The notes beneath the pieces are model-generated. The model was not told where the DNA came from. It made no database searches and saw only the letters and a program-made list of their open reading frames with translations. From positions 1 to 25,851 of IMG/VR virus record IMGVR_UViG_3300032087_001374: 25,851 bases of DNA; one strand, given 5' to 3'. This stretch comes from a virus. This document shows positions 2,376-13,062 of the stretch, in pieces. Positions within the stretch are counted from its first letter, which is position 1. Every line of letters starts with the position of its first letter. The translations under genes and the position numbers were made by a program.

Positions 2376-2674
2376 TAGCACTTCCACCTTCTTCTAGCTT
2401 GCCTAATACGTGAATTAGGATTGTTTCTTGTTTTAGCAGAACTTCTTTTCAGTTGTCCCAGTGATCTTGCACAGTAAGACTTACGTCTTTTTGCTGCCTT
2501 ACTACCTTTCTTTACTTTACCAGTTACGGCTGTCTTCAGTTTAGAACCAGGGTTTGCCTTTCTGTAGGCTTTTACACCCTTAGCTGTCATGCCTGCACCA
2601 GACTTAGTGGGTCTGTAATTAGCACCCTTACCTTTAGTAGTCTTAGGTATGGGCTTGGCTTTCTTCCTAGCCAT
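2375..2674 (-). CDS. Basic phage protein of the DUF6321-like type
   Basis: A 99-aa, very basic protein. The central block TKSGAGMTAKGVKAYRK, followed by NPGSKLKTAVTGKV, KGSKAAKRRKSYCAR and a C-terminal NPNSRIRQARRRWKC, matches a conserved small protein that I recall from marine phages near the terminase genes, annotated DUF6321. Its function is unknown. The Lys/Arg content and two conserved cysteines suggest a virion or DNA-associated role, which is inference. Both ends are TAATG junctions: its ATG overlaps the stop of the EF-hand gene and its stop overlaps the ATG of the next gene, so coupling by ribosome re-initiation is likely. Confidence 0.75.
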   Translation of the reverse strand: MARKKAKPIPKTTKGKGANYRPTKSGAGMTAKGVKAYRKANPGSKLKTAVTGKVKKGSKAAKRRKSYCARSLGQLKRSSAKTRNNPNSRIRQARRRWKC

Positions 2675-3078
2675 TACATAGTTCCCATAGGTTTCCTTGG
2701 GTTAGGCATGTTGGCACTTCCACCATACTTTTTATTTTCAGATGCATAGTTTTTCATTTTACCACCGTAGGACATAGCTTTTCTGGTCTTACAGACGTTG
2801 CCGCCACCTTTTAAATCTACACCTCTGCCTATAAGAATATCTTTTCTAGTTACATCACCGCTACCATCTAAATCAGGAAAAGTAGCTTTACCACCACCTC
2901 TCATATTCCTTTTCATCTTGCCACCATACATGGCTTTCTTAGCTGTTTTAGCAGAATCTACAAAGTCTTGTTTACTAGGTGCACCTGGGTCGCCTACTTT
3001 TCTCATCTTTTCGTTAGAACCTGCTTTGATTCTTTTACGTTTCGCCTGTATGTTTGCGTATAATCCTCTTTTTGCCAC
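2674..3078 (-). CDS. Small basic phage protein with an EF-hand-like loop
   Basis: A 134-aa protein, first gene of the packaging operon. The N-terminus MAKRGLYANIQAKRKRIKAG is a frequent opening of small basic phage proteins. Residues 69-80 (DLDGSGDVTRKD) form an EF-hand/dockerin-like calcium-binding loop with acidic residues at loop positions 1, 3, 7 and 12. YGGKM(K) occurs twice (51-56 and again near 104) with a related KYGGS further on. The start is GTG, with AAGGAG seven bases upstream. The promoter at 3216-3244 lies about 130 nt upstream. Function is unknown; metal binding in the virion is possible but inferred. Confidence 0.75.
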   Translation of the reverse strand: MAKRGLYANIQAKRKRIKAGSNEKMRKVGDPGAPSKQDFVDSAKTAKKAMYGGKMKRNMRGGGKATFPDLDGSGDVTRKDILIGRGVDLKGGGNVCKTRKAMSYGGKMKNYASENKKYGGSANMPNPRKPMGTM

Positions 3079-3170
3079 TTTTAATCTCCTTATATTAGTA
3101 AATGCCTACAGAAGGGTAAAGAGAGGTAGAGAAAAACATTGCATCTTCCTAAGGCTTGCAAGCTCTTGAT

Positions 3171-3201
3171 GGGTTACATATACTACCTCTCACGGTAACC
3201 C
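3171..3201 (-). other. Inverted repeat in the packaging-operon leader
   Basis: GGGTTAC (3171-3177) and GTAACCC (3195-3201) are exact inverted repeats separated by 17 nt. They lie in the roughly 130-nt untranslated leader between the leftward promoter and the GTG at 3078. They could form a 5'-end hairpin that stabilises the late message or binds a regulator. There is no T-run, so it is not a terminator. Confidence 0.4.
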
Positions 3202-3215
3202 CCTTCATGTACCCT

Positions 3216-3244
3216 ATTATAGAGCCAATGTTGCATTTTGTCAA
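3216..3244 (-). promoter_or_regulatory. Perfect consensus sigma70 promoter for the packaging operon
   Basis: On the reverse strand TTGACA (3244-3239), exactly 17 nt, then TATAAT (3221-3216). Transcription should start near 3209 and run into the gene at 3078. Both hexamers and the spacer match the consensus fully, so host RNA polymerase should use it strongly without an activator. It lies 21 bp from the -35 of the divergent promoter at 3266. Confidence 0.85.
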
Positions 3245-3265
3245 CACAAAAAAAAATTTTACTAC

Positions 3266-3294
3266 TTGACAGAATGGATATTTGCATGTATACT
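3266..3294 (+). promoter_or_regulatory. Strong sigma70-type promoter for an orphan small RNA
   Basis: TTGACA (3266-3271), a 17-nt spacer, then TATACT (3289-3294). The expected start is near 3301. It points rightward, opposite to all nearby genes. The palindrome GGGGTTAACCCC (3295-3306) straddles the start site and could be an operator. Confidence 0.75.
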
Positions 3295-3300
3295 GGGGTT

Positions 3301-3371
3301 AACCCCCCAGGGTTAATACTATATATAGGTAGGCTTTTAATATCCCTCAGTTTCGACTGGGGGTTTTTTTT
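3301..3371 (+). ncRNA. Candidate phage small RNA of about 70 nt
   Basis: The unit is bounded by the promoter at 3266-3294 and the intrinsic terminator at 3344-3371, with no start codon plus ribosome binding site between them. The 5' end can form a 7-bp hairpin, TTAACCC (3299-3305) with GGGTTAA (3310-3316) and a 4-nt loop. A single-stranded AU-rich linker with CTATATATAGGTAGGC follows, then the terminator hairpin. This is typical small-RNA architecture. The target is unknown. The linker motif recurs at 3377-3392, outside the predicted RNA. No known phage RNA family is recognised. Confidence 0.6.
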
Positions 3372-3392
3372 GTGTCCTATATAAAGGTAGGC
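3319..3392 (+). repeat. Direct repeat pair CTATATAWAGGTAGGC
   Basis: The 16-mers at 3319-3334 and 3377-3392 differ at one base. One copy lies inside the predicted small RNA, the other just after its terminator. The shorter core AGTAGGC also occurs downstream of the two leftward terminators (3864-3870 and 4370-4376). The role is unknown; a protein-binding or RNA-interaction site is possible. Confidence 0.5.
3344..3371 (+). terminator. Rho-independent terminator of the small RNA
   Basis: CCCTCAG (3344-3350) pairs with CTGGGGG (3357-3363) as a 7-bp stem with one G-T pair and a 6-nt loop. Eight T residues (3364-3371) follow immediately. It is oriented rightward. Confidence 0.85.
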
Positions 3393-3811
3393 AAAACTTA
3401 TTGCGACTCATTCTCAACTAACTAAAAATTAGAAAAAATCTGGCATCTGTGTATACGTAGGTGTGGTATGGGGGTAGTGACCCTTGCGTAGCCCCTGAAT
3501 TCTGCCAAAGTTAAGCACTTAATTTCTGATACAGTCTATACACTTTTTACTTTCGCAGTTTTCCCTGTTTTTTTATCCCCTTTTTTATTTGTTTTGTAGG
3601 GTTTAACCAGTACCAATACCAATAATAAAAGCTATTGCAATATATTTTGTTTATATGGTTATTTTTTTTAAGACCATACTGCGTTGACAAATTAGTTTGT
3701 TTTTTTTGTTGTGCATTGGGAGGGGGTGGGCGTGTCCTTTTTAACTGCAATAAAGGGACTACTGGGCATTATCAATTATATAATCAATAGGTTAGGGATT
3801 ATTCAGGGCAA
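3372..3811. other. Intergenic region without a convincing gene
   Basis: About 440 nt separate the small-RNA terminator from the terminator of the next leftward gene. A 67-codon reverse frame at 3547-3750 (TTG start, low-complexity Tyr/Trp run) lacks a good ribosome binding site and is not called. Around 3445-3515 there is a GC-richer patch with GGGG/CCCC segments that may fold. Its place beside the terminase genes would suit a packaging site or genome end, but nothing in the sequence proves this. Confidence 0.45.
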
Positions 3812-3844
3812 AGAAAAACCCCCCTCAAATTAATGAAGGGGGTT
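3812..3844 (-). terminator. Rho-independent terminator after the 127-aa gene
   Basis: On the reverse strand AACCCCCTTCA pairs over 11 bp (one G-T) with TGAGGGGGGTT around a 6-nt loop, followed by a U-run (A-run at 3814-3818 on the forward strand). It lies about 33 nt after the stop at 3877 and should end that leftward message. Confidence 0.85.
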
Positions 3845-3876
3845 AGGGGGAGGGATTCCTAAAAGTAGGCGTTTAT

Positions 3877-6172: not shown

Positions 6173-6856
6173 TTAATGTTTAAAAAATCCAATTATTGTT
6201 TTTCTTTTTGTATGTGAGCAAAGTTTACAATCTAAACATTTTATTTTGTGGGTTTGTTCAGGGCATATTGTAATATGTTTACCTTGTGGAGTTTTTATAT
6301 CTAAGGGATTTGCTGACAATTTTTCAAATTGTGTTTTAGTAAATGGTAAAACAACAGTGGTGGGTATTTTGGTATCTGACAAAATGTCGGCTTGTTCGAG
6401 TGTATCTGCTGACAAGTTAATTGTAAAGCCTTTATTGTTTGCATATCTAATTAAATTAAGATTATGTTCTGACAATTTTCTTTTCTTACCTGATGCTGTT
6501 GTGTGGTGGTGCGTGTAACAAATAACCTTACCACCTCGATTTACTTTTACAAGTTGCTTTAATTTCTTAGCATCAATCTTGTTTTTCTTAACTACCAAAT
6601 CACCGACTACATTGTGTCGCCATAAACCCTCTTTGTTATGTTTTCTAAAGTAGTAAACTTGTTTTACAAATTCATCCCAGTTGTCAATATTGTCTTGACT
6701 GTAACGATTCCAATGTAAACGAATGGGGAAGTTGTCTCCATAGCAACCATTGTTTTTTAATGTACAAGAAGAGGGACAAGTTTGTCTTGGACTGTAAGAT
6801 GTGGGCATTGCTCCCACCTTTTTTGATTGTGTATTGATTACAAATTTATAAGTCAT
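6173..6856 (-). CDS. Conserved phage protein with Cys motifs, function unknown
   Basis: A 227-aa protein. The N-terminal part has SPRQTCPSSCTLKNNGCYGD (Cys near 27, 31 and 38), then LHWNRY and LWRHNVVGDL. The C-terminal end has CPEQT.KIKCLDCKLC, a second cysteine group. This TCP..C...GCY plus WRHN..GDL pattern recurs in phage proteins that I recall as DUF7227, loosely reminiscent of the Gp37/Gp68 (DUF5131) group. Metal or iron-sulfur binding is inferred from the cysteines. The ATG has AGGAG about nine bases upstream. Copy 2 of the conserved promoter-like element sits just before it. Confidence 0.65.
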   Translation of the reverse strand: MTYKFVINTQSKKVGAMPTSYSPRQTCPSSCTLKNNGCYGDNFPIRLHWNRYSQDNIDNWDEFVKQVYYFRKHNKEGLWRHNVVGDLVVKKNKIDAKKLKQLVKVNRGGKVICYTHHHTTASGKKRKLSEHNLNLIRYANNKGFTINLSADTLEQADILSDTKIPTTVVLPFTKTQFEKLSANPLDIKTPQGKHITICPEQTHKIKCLDCKLCSHTKRKTIIGFFKH

Positions 6857-7509: not shown

Positions 7510-7638
7510 CTAAATTTTTTTATACCACTTCCTGTCTACTTCATCAAAGTAAATGTTTTCTAAATCTACCCTTTGAGGTCTATGTGAATACCTTTTACCT
7601 TTCGATTTTTTCTTACCTTCGATTAATCTTTTTGACAT
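7510..7638 (-). CDS. 42-aa basic hypothetical protein
   Basis: The frame begins MSKRLIEGKKKSKGKRYSHR and ends DEVDRKWYKKI. It is a small, very basic protein with a C-terminal aromatic/charged tail. AAGGAGG lies eight bases before the ATG, and the ATG overlaps the stop of the upstream gene in a TAATG junction. Both signs are strong for such a short frame. Nucleic-acid contact is possible from the charge only. Confidence 0.65.
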   Translation of the reverse strand: MSKRLIEGKKKSKGKRYSHRPQRVDLENIYFDEVDRKWYKKI

Positions 7639-7871
7639 TAAGGCAACCTCCTTACAAATTCTGCTTGCTCATCTGAGGCTACTCTTCTTCTTGATAGTTC
7701 TCTTGCTATCCTATCTAACAAAGCAATGATGTCTTCCCTAAGACTTGCAGTGCCACCACCTCTTTGTAATCTAAGAAGGGCATGAAGTTCATGCTGTGCA
7801 AATTCATACTCTTCTGTAAGAGTTCCTAACCTAATTAGCTTTTCGTACTTGCTTAAATCTATACTCATCAT
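7638..7871 (-). CDS. Small helical hypothetical protein
   Basis: A 77-aa protein, mostly helical (YEKLIRLGTLTEEYEFAQHE; LREDIIALLDRIARELSRRR). No family is recognised; the pattern would suit a small coiled coil or a DNA-binding helix bundle. Two adjacent ATG codons (7871 and 7868) follow GGAG; the second has the better spacing. It overlaps the zinc-ribbon gene by about 40 nt and is coupled by TAATG to the next gene. Confidence 0.6.
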   Translation of the reverse strand: MMSIDLSKYEKLIRLGTLTEEYEFAQHELHALLRLQRGGGTASLREDIIALLDRIARELSRRRVASDEQAEFVRRLP

Positions 7872-7986
7872 ATCTCTCCTTTAAGTGTGGTGTAACTTTT
7901 GCTATGTAACAAACAGCACACCACAATCTGTTTGTTTTGTTATCTACAATATCTGCCCTGTCATCACAGTAATCACATTTTCTCAT
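7831..7986 (-). CDS. 51-aa zinc-ribbon protein
   Basis: A 51-aa protein starting MRKCDYCDDRADIVDNKTNR, with C4-x2-C7 and C23-x2-C26, the spacing of a small zinc ribbon. The C-terminus is basic. The start is set by GGAGG five bases before this ATG. A longer in-frame reading back to a GTG at 8088 would run through the long hairpin at 8006-8052 and has no ribosome binding site. It is the first gene after the structured region, so that region could act as its leader. DNA or RNA binding is inferred. Confidence 0.6.
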   Translation of the reverse strand: MRKCDYCDDRADIVDNKTNRLWCAVCYIAKVTPHLKERYDEYRFKQVRKAN

Positions 7987-8005
7987 CTGTTCCTCCCTTA
8001 GGTTC

Positions 8006-8150
8006 GACAACAGACAAGGGGAAAAATAATGGGAAAAACCTTGTCTGCTGTCTTGCAAGTAGAAGGGGACTGATAACCTCTTGCTCACGAGATTGAATCG
8101 CCCCTACTACTCTGTCTGGCTTGAGTTTGCTACGCAACGATTCAACTCAA
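8006..8150 (-). ncRNA. Candidate structured RNA with long helix and pseudoknot
   Basis: No credible gene covers 7987-8319. On the reverse strand several helices are possible. A 14-bp helix joins 8006-8019 and 8039-8052; its one imperfect position is a G-U pair only in the leftward RNA, and an A-C mismatch in the other direction. A 10-position helix with one mismatch joins 8059-8068 and 8101-8110. TTGAATCG (8093-8100, forward), in the loop of that helix, is fully complementary to CGATTCAA (8138-8145), which gives a pseudoknot. A 7-bp helix joins 8121-8127 and 8144-8150. The stretch is also GC-richer than its neighbours. The remaining 8151-8319 may be part of it. No known RNA family is recognised; it could be a leader of the zinc-ribbon gene or an independent RNA. 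Confidence 0.45.
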
Positions 8151-8319
8151 CTTACGCTTACAAATCGCCTAGGACTAGCATCAGTAAGACCATATTCTTA
8201 TAACTTGGCATTGATAGGTAATCTTTTGGGGAATACTTTTAATGGGTTTTCTCCTTTGTTTAAGGGTTACACCACAGACTTTCACTGCCTTTCCCAACCA
8301 AGTCAATTCTTTTAACTCC

Positions 8320-8700
8320 TTACTTTACTTCAAACTTCTTTGAAACTTCATTAATAATATCATCTATGTTTTCGTGGCTAGACAATTCCATAAGATGTAG
8401 TTCATCTACAATATTATCTTTTAAATAATACGAAGTTATTTTAGTTTTGCCTGTATCGTCATCTATATAAATATACGACACACCTTCGCCAAAAATGTCT
8501 TCCTTCATGGTATCTTTCATATCACCATATGCCTCTCTTAAAGCATTATACTTGTCATACACAACCTGTGCTTTATCCCTAGCTTTTTTGTATTTAACAA
8601 AAGCAGGGTGCTTTGCTACTGATTTTGATTTAAAACTACTTTTAACTTTTTTAACTATTTTTTCGGCTATCAGTTCTTTTTGCCTGTTCGTTATTCTCAT
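8320..8700 (-). CDS. Hypothetical basic/helical protein
   Basis: A 126-aa protein. The N-terminal half is basic and helical (MRITNRQKELIAEKIVKKVK and a Lys-rich run), the C-terminal half acidic with a beta segment (VSYIYIDDDTGKTKITSYYL). No family is recognised. The ATG at 8700 is preferred to one at 8721, because AGGAG lies eight bases before 8700 and nothing lies before 8721. It overlaps the preceding gene by about 50 nt. Downstream lies the structured region at 8.0-8.3 kb. Confidence 0.6.
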   Translation of the reverse strand: MRITNRQKELIAEKIVKKVKSSFKSKSVAKHPAFVKYKKARDKAQVVYDKYNALREAYGDMKDTMKEDIFGEGVSYIYIDDDTGKTKITSYYLKDNIVDELHLMELSSHENIDDIINEVSKKFEVK

Positions 8701-8860
8701 TATTATTTCTCCTAAGTTCATTTAAAAATGTTACTATCACATTAAGGTCTGCTACTTTGTATTCTAATTCAGTCAATGCCTTCTCAATGCGATTTACTCT
8801 AGCATTAACTTTTTCGGCTTCTTTGTCAACTCCTAAAATATTTTTTATTATTCTAATCAT
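8651..8860 (-). CDS. Small coiled-coil hypothetical protein
   Basis: A 69-aa protein with a regular heptad stretch (EAEKVNARVNRIEKALTELE, then YKVADLNVIVTFLNEL) and a polar Asn/Arg-rich tail. A coiled coil is likely. The ATG at 8860 overlaps the stop of the upstream gene by 8 nt (ATGATTAG) and is preferred to a GTG at 8878. No family is recognised. Confidence 0.6.
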   Translation of the reverse strand: MIRIIKNILGVDKEAEKVNARVNRIEKALTELEYKVADLNVIVTFLNELRRNNNENNEQAKRTDSRKNS

Positions 8861-9020
8861 CTTTCCATTCTTGTACACGAATATTTTTTACTTTAAAATC
8901 TAAATCATCTAACCAACTTATAATTTCACTTTCAATATGTGATGTATCAAAAAAAGTTTCATCATCTTCTCTTAAATCATCATCTCTATCTAAATCAAAT
9001 TCTACATTAAACTTTGTCAT
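8853..9020 (-). CDS. 55-aa acidic hypothetical protein
   Basis: The frame begins MTKFNVEFDLDRDDDLREDD and ends VQEWKDD. It is highly acidic. AGGAG lies six bases before the ATG, and the promoter at 9055-9083 lies directly upstream. It is the first gene of the leftward accessory operon. A small, very acidic, first-expressed phage protein could be a DNA mimic that blocks a host enzyme. This is speculation; only composition and position support it. Confidence 0.6.
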   Translation of the reverse strand: MTKFNVEFDLDRDDDLREDDETFFDTSHIESEIISWLDDLDFKVKNIRVQEWKDD

Positions 9021-9054
9021 CACTTTCTCCTAATTATAATTATTAATTATAACC

Positions 9055-9083
9055 CTTATAAAACTTACTTTTCTTATTGTCAA
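9055..9083 (-). promoter_or_regulatory. Sigma70 promoter of the leftward accessory operon
   Basis: On the reverse strand TTGACA (9083-9078), exactly 17 nt, then TATAAG (9060-9055). Transcription should start near 9048, about 27 nt before the ATG at 9020. Confidence 0.75.
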
Positions 9084-9153
9084 GTTATATTTTATTTTTT
9101 ATTTATTGACTATAAGTAGATTACTACTAGTATATTAAATACTCCCTTAATAT

Positions 9154-9162
9154 TGTTATAAT
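9154..9162 (+). promoter_or_regulatory. Candidate extended -10 promoter, rightward
   Basis: TG, one base, TATAAT (9157-9162) forms an extended -10 element. There is no good -35. The start would be near 9169, directly at the palindrome 9170-9183, and the first rightward gene follows at 9221. It is a plausible start for the rightward replication operon. Confidence 0.5.
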
Positions 9163-9169
9163 TTTTATG

Positions 9170-9183
9170 TAGACTAAAGTCTA
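9170..9183. promoter_or_regulatory. Operator-like palindrome TAGACTAAAGTCTA
   Basis: Two exact 6-nt arms, TAGACT and AGTCTA, flank AA. The palindrome lies at the predicted start of the rightward promoter and close to the expected -10 of the leftward element at 9192-9210. A dimeric regulator bound here could control both directions. No obvious regulator gene is seen in the window. Confidence 0.5.
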
Positions 9184-9191
9184 TTTTAAGG

Positions 9192-9210
9192 GTGTTCGTT
9201 TTTATGTCAA
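9192..9210 (-). promoter_or_regulatory. Conserved leftward promoter-like element, copy 3
   Basis: On the reverse strand TTGACA (9210-9205), then ACGAACAC (9199-9192) and CCTTAAAA. Spacing between TTGAC and the core is six bases here and seven in copies 1 and 2. The -10 at 17 nt would be AAAATA. It points toward the operon starting at 9020. Confidence 0.6.
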
Positions 9211-9220
9211 GGAGGAAAGT

Positions 9221-9307
9221 ATGAAAATAAATTTATTTAATTTTATGATAATAAATTATATATTACAATTATCCATAGTTCTGATAGTTGCTTTAATTAA
9301 GGGCTGA
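9221..9307 (+). CDS. 28-aa predicted membrane peptide, first rightward gene
   Basis: The frame begins MKINLFNFMIINYILQLSIV and ends LIVALIKG, hydrophobic over nearly its full length. AAGGAGG lies five bases before the ATG, the best ribosome binding site in this area. It follows the extended -10 promoter and the palindrome, so it is likely made very early. A membrane role such as host takeover or superinfection exclusion is possible but not shown by sequence. Confidence 0.6.
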   Translation: MKINLFNFMIINYILQLSIVLIVALIKG

Positions 9308-11151: not shown

Positions 11152-13062
11152 ATGCAACAAGTAGAGTTACCGTCAGATTATCAAAAGTTTATACACCAGT
11201 CACGTTACGCTAGGTGGAAAGAAGAAGAAGGAAGAAGAGAGACATGGGAGGAGACAGTATCAAGATATTTTGATTTTATGTCTGACCACCTTCTTGACAA
11301 CTTTGATTATGAGTTACCTGACAGCATAAGAGAAAGGATAGAAAACAGAGTCCTTAATCTTGACATCATGCCTTCTATGAGAGCACTGATGACAGCAGGT
11401 GTTGCATTAGAAAGATGCAATGTTGCAGGTTACAACTGTTCTTATCTACCAGTTGACAATCCAAGATCGTTTGACGAATGTCTTTACATACTTATGTGTG
11501 GCACAGGTGTAGGTTTCTCTGTTGAGACTAAGTACACAGCACAACTACCTATAGTAAACGAGGCACTACATGACTCTGACACTGTAGTAGTAGTATCTGA
11601 CTCTAAAGAAGGTTGGGCTAAAGGTTACAAAGAACTAATATCTCTGTTATACTCTGGACAAATTCCTAAGTGGGACTTGTCTCGCCTACGCCCTGCAGGT
11701 GCTAGGTTAAAAACTTTTGGCGGTAGATCATCTGGTCCAGACCCTCTTGACGATTTGTTCCAGTTTACTGTAGATATTTTTAAGAAATCTGCAGGTAGGC
11801 GTTTAAAGTCCATAGAGTGCCATGACATTATGTGTAAGATAGGCTCTGTGGTAGTGGTAGGAGGAGTACGAAGATCGGCTCTAATAAGCTTATCTGACCT
11901 TGAGGATCAAGAGATGTCATTGGCTAAGTCTGGCGAGTGGTGGAATGACGAGGGGCAGAGGGCTCTTGCAAACAATTCTGTATGCTATCAAGACACACCT
12001 CCTGTAGGCATTTTTATGAGAGAATGGCTAAACCTATACAATTCTAAGTCTGGTGAAAGAGGCATATTTAGTAGAGATGCTTCTGTTAGACAGGCAGAAA
12101 AGAATGGCAGAAGAGATTCTGGACATGAGTTTGGAACTAACCCATGTTCTGAAATTATACTAAGACCGTATCAATTTTGCAACTTAACAGAAGTTGTAGT
12201 CAGAGCAGATGATGATATTGAAAGGTTAGCTAAGAAAGTAGAAGATGCTACCATACTTGGCACAATACAATCTACACTTACAGAGTTTAAGTACCTACGA
12301 AAAGTTTGGCAAAACAATACAGAAGAAGAAAGACTTCTTGGTGTTTCGCTTACAGGCATATTAGATAATCCTAAGTTAGGAAAGGCAGATGACCTGAAGA
12401 GGTTAAGACAACAGGCTGTAGATACTAATTTAGGATTAGCAGAACAACTAGGCATACCGCAGTCAACTGCTATTACTTGTGTAAAACCTTCAGGCACAGT
12501 CTCACAACTTGTAGACTCTGCTTCTGGTATACATGCAAGGCACTCAGCATATTATATAAGAACAGTTAGAGGCGACAAGAAAGACCCACTATCTCAGTTT
12601 CTTATTGACCAAGGTATACCGCATGAGGATGACCTTATGCAACCAGAGAACACTGTGGTCTTTTCATTCCCTATGAAGTCTCCTACCAAGGCAGTCCTTA
12701 GAGAAGACCTCAGTGCCATTACTCAGCTAGAAAACTGGAAGAACTACCAAGAGCATTGGTGTGAACATAAACCCTCAGTTACCATATCTGTAAAAGAAGA
12801 TGAATGGTTTGAAGTAGGTTCTTGGGTGTACAATAATTTTAAAGATGTAGCAGGTGTTTCATTTCTGCCACACTCTGACCATACATACAAACAGGCACCA
12901 TACCAAGACATAACTAAGGAAGAGTATGATACCTTAAGTAAAAAAATGCCACGAAATGTCGATTGGACATTATTATCAAACTACGAAAGAGAGGACAATA
13001 CAACAGGCACACAAGAGTTGGCATGCAGTGCAGGTGCTTGTGAGATTGTAGACATAACATGA
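11152..13062 (+). CDS. Adenosylcobalamin-dependent ribonucleoside-triphosphate reductase (class II, monomeric)
   Basis: It reduces ribonucleotides to deoxyribonucleotides for phage DNA synthesis, using coenzyme B12. The 636-aa chain keeps all expected residues of the monomeric class II family: C96 in GYNCSY, the active-site loop NPCSEI (N330, C332, E334), C343 eleven residues after C332, and the C-terminal pair C625-x4-C630 that relays electrons from thioredoxin. The spacing C332-x10-C343 and C-x4-C agree with the Lactobacillus-type enzyme. No intein or separate radical-generating subunit is seen. The ATG follows a short gap with AGGAG upstream. Its stop overlaps the next ATG. The host or its surroundings must supply B12. 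Confidence 0.95.
   Translation: MQQVELPSDYQKFIHQSRYARWKEEEGRRETWEETVSRYFDFMSDHLLDNFDYELPDSIRERIENRVLNLDIMPSMRALMTAGVALERCNVAGYNCSYLPVDNPRSFDECLYILMCGTGVGFSVETKYTAQLPIVNEALHDSDTVVVVSDSKEGWAKGYKELISLLYSGQIPKWDLSRLRPAGARLKTFGGRSSGPDPLDDLFQFTVDIFKKSAGRRLKSIECHDIMCKIGSVVVVGGVRRSALISLSDLEDQEMSLAKSGEWWNDEGQRALANNSVCYQDTPPVGIFMREWLNLYNSKSGERGIFSRDASVRQAEKNGRRDSGHEFGTNPCSEIILRPYQFCNLTEVVVRADDDIERLAKKVEDATILGTIQSTLTEFKYLRKVWQNNTEEERLLGVSLTGILDNPKLGKADDLKRLRQQAVDTNLGLAEQLGIPQSTAITCVKPSGTVSQLVDSASGIHARHSAYYIRTVRGDKKDPLSQFLIDQGIPHEDDLMQPENTVVFSFPMKSPTKAVLREDLSAITQLENWKNYQEHWCEHKPSVTISVKEDEWFEVGSWVYNNFKDVAGVSFLPHSDHTYKQAPYQDITKEEYDTLSKKMPRNVDWTLLSNYEREDNTTGTQELACSAGACEIVDIT

Follow-up and report, generated by a model that had tools for sequence, protein, structure and literature searches.

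Separately folded, mostly knotted RNA modules arrayed in the leftward early operon of marine HMO-2011-type phages

The locus and its gene context

The window (the whole stretch of DNA analysed, 25,851 nucleotides) derives from an uncultivated virus and covers a 25.9-kb fragment of it. Its terminase is nearest to those of HMO-2011-type phages (54% for HMO-2011 and 51% for Pelagibacter phage HTVC033P), and it carries a B12-dependent ribonucleotide reductase with 66.5% identity to the HMO-2011 enzyme (Table 1). Phages of the HMO-2011 type are reported to dominate in the ocean and to occur widely there (PMC9038755).

The stretch at 7987-8319 is flanked on both sides by small leftward genes. The ribosome-binding site and ATG (7984-7997) of the downstream zinc-ribbon-like gene follow the last RNA module, K. 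Neither this gene nor the small gene directly upstream of the array belongs to a family in Pfam, PADLOC or PHROG; most small phage genes match nothing. A DUF7227 protein (Pfam E 1.5e-60) is encoded within the same early operon.

Table 1. Features of the window, numbered from its first nucleotide
Feature	Position	Strand	Basis and remarks
RNA module A, H-type pseudoknot	8202..8304	-	11 distinct homologues, covariation, model
RNA module F (variant F0), two hairpins and kissing pairing	8111..8199	-	9 homologues, 3 variants
RNA module G, long closed stem	8055..8110	-	10 homologues; contains the 10-position helix 8059-8110 of the first-pass annotation
RNA module K, 14-bp hairpin 8039-8052/8006-8019 with U-rich 19-nt loop	8006..8052	-	z = -8.1
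Small zinc-ribbon-like gene	7831..7986	-	Next downstream of the array; sequence and ORF list
Small gene	8320..8697	-	Borders the array on its upstream side, within the leftward operon; ORF list
Candidate leftward early promoter	9055..9083	-	TTGACA 9078-9083, 17-nt spacer, TATAAG 9055-9060; read from sequence
DUF7227 protein	6173..6856	-	Pfam
B12-dependent ribonucleotide reductase	11152..13059	+	Identity to phage HMO-2011 enzyme
Second structured leader	3079..3260	-	TTGACA/TATAAT promoter, then two interleaved long helices; before gene 2674-3078
Remainder of gene-poor gap	3260..3876		Partly conserved in relatives

The first-pass annotation had described about 330 nt with no credible gene and a higher GC content than the surroundings, and both points were borne out. 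Among homologues of A, C or F no frame is open throughout, module lengths differ by non-multiples of 3, and indels break the frames; GC is ~0.37-0.45 in the stretch versus ~0.25-0.33 in most flanking leftward genes. On each strand the stretch is overlapped by short ORFs (40-85 codons), but a coding reading was rejected since no frame is conserved among homologues. With helices that covary and a separate contig (L002/L068) that has the same array, there is next to no chance that the stretch is protein-coding or an assembly artefact.

A plain fold of the whole 333 nt was only modestly better than shuffled sequence (z about -2, on either strand), and the leftward-strand folding energy of modules A and F was not better than that of shuffles, so that energy was not used as evidence for these two. 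The evidence for the stretch comes from comparison between phages rather than from folding energy.

Four RNA modules in the window

Positions 8006-8304 contain four adjacent stem-closed RNA modules, in the RNA order A-F-G-K. Two of the helices had been drawn in the first-pass annotation and were recovered here: the 14-bp helix of module K, which none of 500 shuffles equalled, and the approximately 10-position helix of module G (z = -3.3, 2/500 shuffles as good). Module K shows 92-98% identity in more than 10 relatives, where it stands beside differing genes and modules. It was rejected as an intrinsic terminator because it has no U-tract, and no terminator was found in 7600-9300.

Module A is a third conserved structured domain, overlooked in the first-pass annotation. 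It consists of a closing helix (8298-8303/8203-8208), S1 (8293-8296/8243-8246), S2 (8251-8254/8230-8233) and an inner hairpin within 8274-8288, and covariance model R3 matched it in the window with 117.6 bits. The piece 8207-8299 retains 83-99% identity also where the surrounding DNA of a contig has diverged to only ~70%, and the closing helix covaries, with ACTTGG/CCAAGT in some sequences and TGTAGG/CCTACA in others.

Module F comprises P2 (8184-8188/8157-8161), P3 (8144-8150/8121-8127) and a kissing pairing (8176-8180/8128-8132) that is backed by covariation. A hairpin, a UUAAA linker and a kissing loop give it a topological likeness, seen by eye, to the Pistol ribozyme; this reading was ruled out since the third helix and the cleavage strand are missing and there is no Rfam match.

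A further pairing had been proposed between a loop and a segment 37 nt away (8138-8145/8093-8100), which would join F to G in an 8-bp pseudoknot. It can form in the window, but it is not conserved: all 8 relatives sharing the G segment GATTCAATC lack the full partner, 2 of them keeping 5 nt and 6 none. The stretch is real and does not code for protein; its leftward strand is structured, in a form unlike that first drawn.

Covariation and the selected strand

Covariation was examined for modules A, C, E, F and G. In module A 93.5% of the cells were paired and 8 pairs had changed on both sides, with a covariation score of 0.270 versus 0.107 when shuffled. In module C (16 sequences) 94.7% of the cells were paired and 13 pairs had changed on both sides; the score was 0.272, versus 0.128 when shuffled and at most 0.088 when the structure was slid. 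The variants of its pseudoknot helix change in concert (CGGUA/UACCG, UCGGAA/UUCCGA, CUUGGUA/UACUGAG), and one of its hairpins, with a palindromic AGCU loop, covaries as well. Module E scored 0.252 versus 0.172, the signal being clear in the closing helix and the pseudoknot and weak in the inner hairpin.

Modules F and G were aligned by hand and carry less weight than A, C and E, because hand alignment leans to the structure. In F (9 homologues, 3 variants) 95.3% of the cells were paired, 11/19 pairs had changed on both sides and the score over the 19 pairs was 0.640 versus 0.228 when shuffled; in the closing helix of G (10 homologues) the corresponding values were 96.7%, 6/9 and 0.565 versus 0.247 over 9 pairs. 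No shuffle was as good in A (0/500), C (0/500) or F (0/2000), counts that are not probabilities because the sequences share ancestry; the weight of the argument is on the slid controls, run for A, C and E, and on the many independent helix changes. Covariation is strong in A, C, E, F and G and extends to pseudoknots or kissing pairs in four of these (A, C, E, F).

The counts over modules A, C and E were 80 G-U cells and 16 A-C cells, indicating that the leftward RNA is the strand under selection, as the first-pass annotation had suggested from a single pair. Relatives were also checked for loss of the helices and for a conserved reading frame, and the outcome favours RNA.

Module arrays in related phages

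Relatives were retrieved through the primase-like and DUF7227 genes adjoining the array, and most are contig fragments. About 28 related marine viral contigs carry 1-9 modules each, mostly at the same operon position. At least 13 module types were distinguished, in the RNA order L, M, A, B, H, I, C, D, E, F, G, J, K. They measure 47-160 nt, are diverse in sequence and include H-type pseudoknots (A, C, E), kissing hairpins (F) and long hairpins (G, K, L); every well-sampled module forms a fold of its own, closed by a stem. Short linkers, often AAGAAU, join the modules; the motif AAGAA[TC] occurs 32 times in the arrays, 30 of them at module starts. The array reaches ~600-900 nt in relatives, and the stretch in the window is a short version of this longer array.

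An F-like module, N, was seen by eye between A and C in contig L005 (3743-3843, -) and also in L063. Module L (10 variants; L019 3645-3719, -) is a long hairpin with opposed U-rich internal loops and, by eye, resembles poly(A)-binding ENE elements.

The 29 contigs showed 27 arrangements, some arrays being cut by contig ends; on our own reading, most of the differences appear to persist when the cut arrays are set aside. Uncut arrays have 2 to 9 modules, and no module is common to all arrays of the 29 contigs. Order and copy number vary (A-K-D-E in L006, A-D-E-F-E in L023, L-G-D in L022), and the order is partly kept, with A ahead of C, D, E, F and G. Alignment breakpoints fall at or close to module borders: the L005 alignment is interrupted precisely between K and G, the site of an inserted module J, and again near both ends of F.

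An E-only covariance model gave matches to A in many genomes, and to module I too (E about 0.001 to 0.8), and the model of A recovered E; these cross-model scores are weak but fall at the predicted places. By this comparison A and E are paralogous, and I is probably paralogous to both.

Contigs L046, L059 and L064 have a structural gene set different from that of the HMO-2011-type contigs, and the L046 terminase is closest to that of Pelagibacter phage HTVC027P (61%) and unrelated to the HMO-2011-type terminase. The gene context around the array in L057, L061 and L075 is similar to that in these three. Modules in contigs of this second phage type are 94-100% identical to those in HMO-2011-type contigs. 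Comparison of the contigs shows the module to be the unit of gain, loss, duplication and exchange, also between unrelated phage types.

Long structured phage RNAs with many pseudoknots and no assigned function are represented by GOLLD and ROOL, single large RNAs with a common core that often lie near tRNA islands (PMC12286853). The array could likewise be one large ornate RNA or RNA-protein scaffold, its modules being peripheral domains of a single particle. Such a particle would suit modules that abut through short linkers in a partly conserved order, the similar total length of the long arrays, the abundance of pseudoknots and kissing pairs, and the palindromic loop of module C, which could dimerise. 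We consider it unlikely, since the array consists of short shuffled modules with changing order and copy number, has no universal core and no tRNA nearby, and matched neither GOLLD nor ROOL in Rfam searches of the window, of 4 relatives at E up to 10 and of 10 relatives at the gathering threshold. GOLLD and ROOL are the nearest kind, but the array has neither the Rfam match nor the common core that would place it with them.

Genes around the array

Most contigs have the array in their early leftward operon, amid fast-changing small genes, and the genes on both of its flanks differ between phages. The upstream gene of the window is replaced in relatives by another gene or by none, and the zinc-ribbon-like gene is missing beside the array in many of them, making a leader for one specific gene unlikely. 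The proposal that the stretch is a leader controlling the zinc-ribbon gene found no support: L006 and L008 have the K hairpin without that gene, and in the second phage type (L057, L059, L064) the array ends directly at another promoter.

A more general cis-acting role in the early operon, such as antitermination in the manner of HK022 put, mRNA stabilisation or processing, or translational control, would be in keeping with the location and with stable hairpins, which are typical of processed operons. The phage put RNA, also a structured RNA of early transcripts, acts in cis on polymerase (PMC9378689). Its position downstream of an early promoter is matched in L022, where a promoter (TTGACA/TTTAAA-type) similar to the candidate promoter of the window lies a few tens of nt before the array with no gene between, but not in the second phage type, with its array at the operon end. 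The put RNA is not an exchangeable multi-module array, and for a cis-acting element one or two copies would suffice, so that diversified paralogous cassettes beside varying genes are unexpected; a cis-acting role is in our view improbable.

Known RNA families and other genomes

No Rfam family scored above its gathering threshold in the window, and a lenient search gave weak scores only, nothing beyond chance. This agrees with the suggestion of an independent phage RNA, which holds in outline: the RNA is structured, leftward and without an Rfam match. The AdoCbl-II riboswitch matched module A weakly (14.1 bits versus a gathering score of 36.5) and was rejected; this phage does have a B12-type ribonucleotide reductase, but the reductase is on another transcript and the conserved helices differ. 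ARAGORN found no tRNA or tmRNA. Phage tRNA arrays likewise line up short structured RNA units, with a set that varies from one related phage to the next, but the folds here are pseudoknots rather than cloverleaves.

Type III toxin-antitoxin RNAs (ToxI-like) are tandem pseudoknotted units, near-identical short repeats beside a toxin gene. The array shares the tandem pseudoknotted units, but its modules are larger and more diverse in sequence and length than such repeats, and its neighbours match no PADLOC, Pfam or PHROG toxin. Racrs (RNA anti-CRISPRs) are small phage RNAs against host immunity that, like the array, are located among accessory genes, but they are single CRISPR-repeat mimics (PMC10651486). 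The modules might be decoys of RNA-based defences of these two kinds, a special case that overlaps with trans-acting cassettes. Pseudoknotted antitoxins, the phage use of RNA mimics of defence RNAs (PMC10651486) and the fast-changing small early genes around the array would fit; on the other hand, neither a toxin nor a CRISPR part was found in the neighbourhood, and the modules show no Rfam similarity to known families. We regard decoys as decidedly unlikely.

No copy of the array was found in isolate phages by DNA similarity, and covariance models of C and E gave no significant match in HMO-2011, HTVC033P, HTVC115P or HTVC027P. A single scan of bacterial genomes, with the E core pattern only, gave one apparent chance match. 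Pattern-scan matches in L045, L055, L066, L067, L073, L074 and L076-L078 were discarded, since they look like chance and lie mostly in coding sequence. We found no description of such arrays, and no report of structured RNAs in HMO-2011-type phages, in the literature searched, whose coverage was incomplete, so that an earlier report is possible; the terms non-coding and intergenic are absent from the HMO-2011-type genome paper. Within that literature, the array of separately folded, mostly knotted RNA units is previously undescribed.

Proposed role of the array

The comparison between phages establishes a conserved leftward RNA structure together with modularity, paralogy and exchange. The stretch is a four-module copy of a modular non-coding RNA array of the early leftward operon of HMO-2011-type marine phages, presumably transcribed from the leftward early promoter together with the neighbouring small accessory genes into an RNA that may be stable or processed. 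The modules would act in trans, either processed or as beads on a single transcript, and could bind or mimic host RNAs or RNA-binding factors, aiding takeover or blunting defences. Differing module sets would fit differing host strains, in the way that phages vary their complements of tRNA genes or of small anti-host proteins.

That the modules are exchangeable trans-acting RNA cassettes, derived from the early leftward transcript and with the host as their target, is suggested by the covariation, the leftward strand, the 27 arrangements among 29 contigs, the linker motif at module starts, the breakpoints at module borders, the paralogy, the near-identical modules in a second phage type, the varying flanks and the promoters at or close to the array in L022, L057, L059 and L064. 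We give this reading a probability of about one half. Counted against it are the partly kept order, which a single functional RNA would also give, the lack of a host or bacterial counterpart in a bacterial scan that used one module, and flanking genes that match no known defence or counter-defence family.

The differing combinations in different, even unrelated, ocean phages suggest a swappable, host-aimed RNA toolkit. A slightly bolder statement, to which we give a little less than even odds, is that this small-RNA toolkit of marine phages is the RNA counterpart of accessory-gene islands, in which each cassette recombines and diversifies as a unit, is shared by unrelated phages with the same hosts, and works in trans on some host factor or defence system. 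If arrays of many RNA folds do move as cassettes from one phage type to an unrelated one, they would amount to an accessory region of a new kind, built from RNA where others are built from proteins. The array provides five or more new RNA families whose covariation is clear, and raises a direct experimental question, namely which host factor each cassette targets.

A second structured leader in the window

Another structured leader was observed in the leftward direction (Table 1). Its two interleaved helices are GGGUUAC/GUAACCC and GAGAGGUAG/CUACCUCUC; in L056 the second is GGGGGGUA/UACCCCCC, a compensatory change. The leader is part of an 800-nt gene-poor gap, and parts of the remainder of this gap are 80-94% conserved in L031, L032 and L036-L038.
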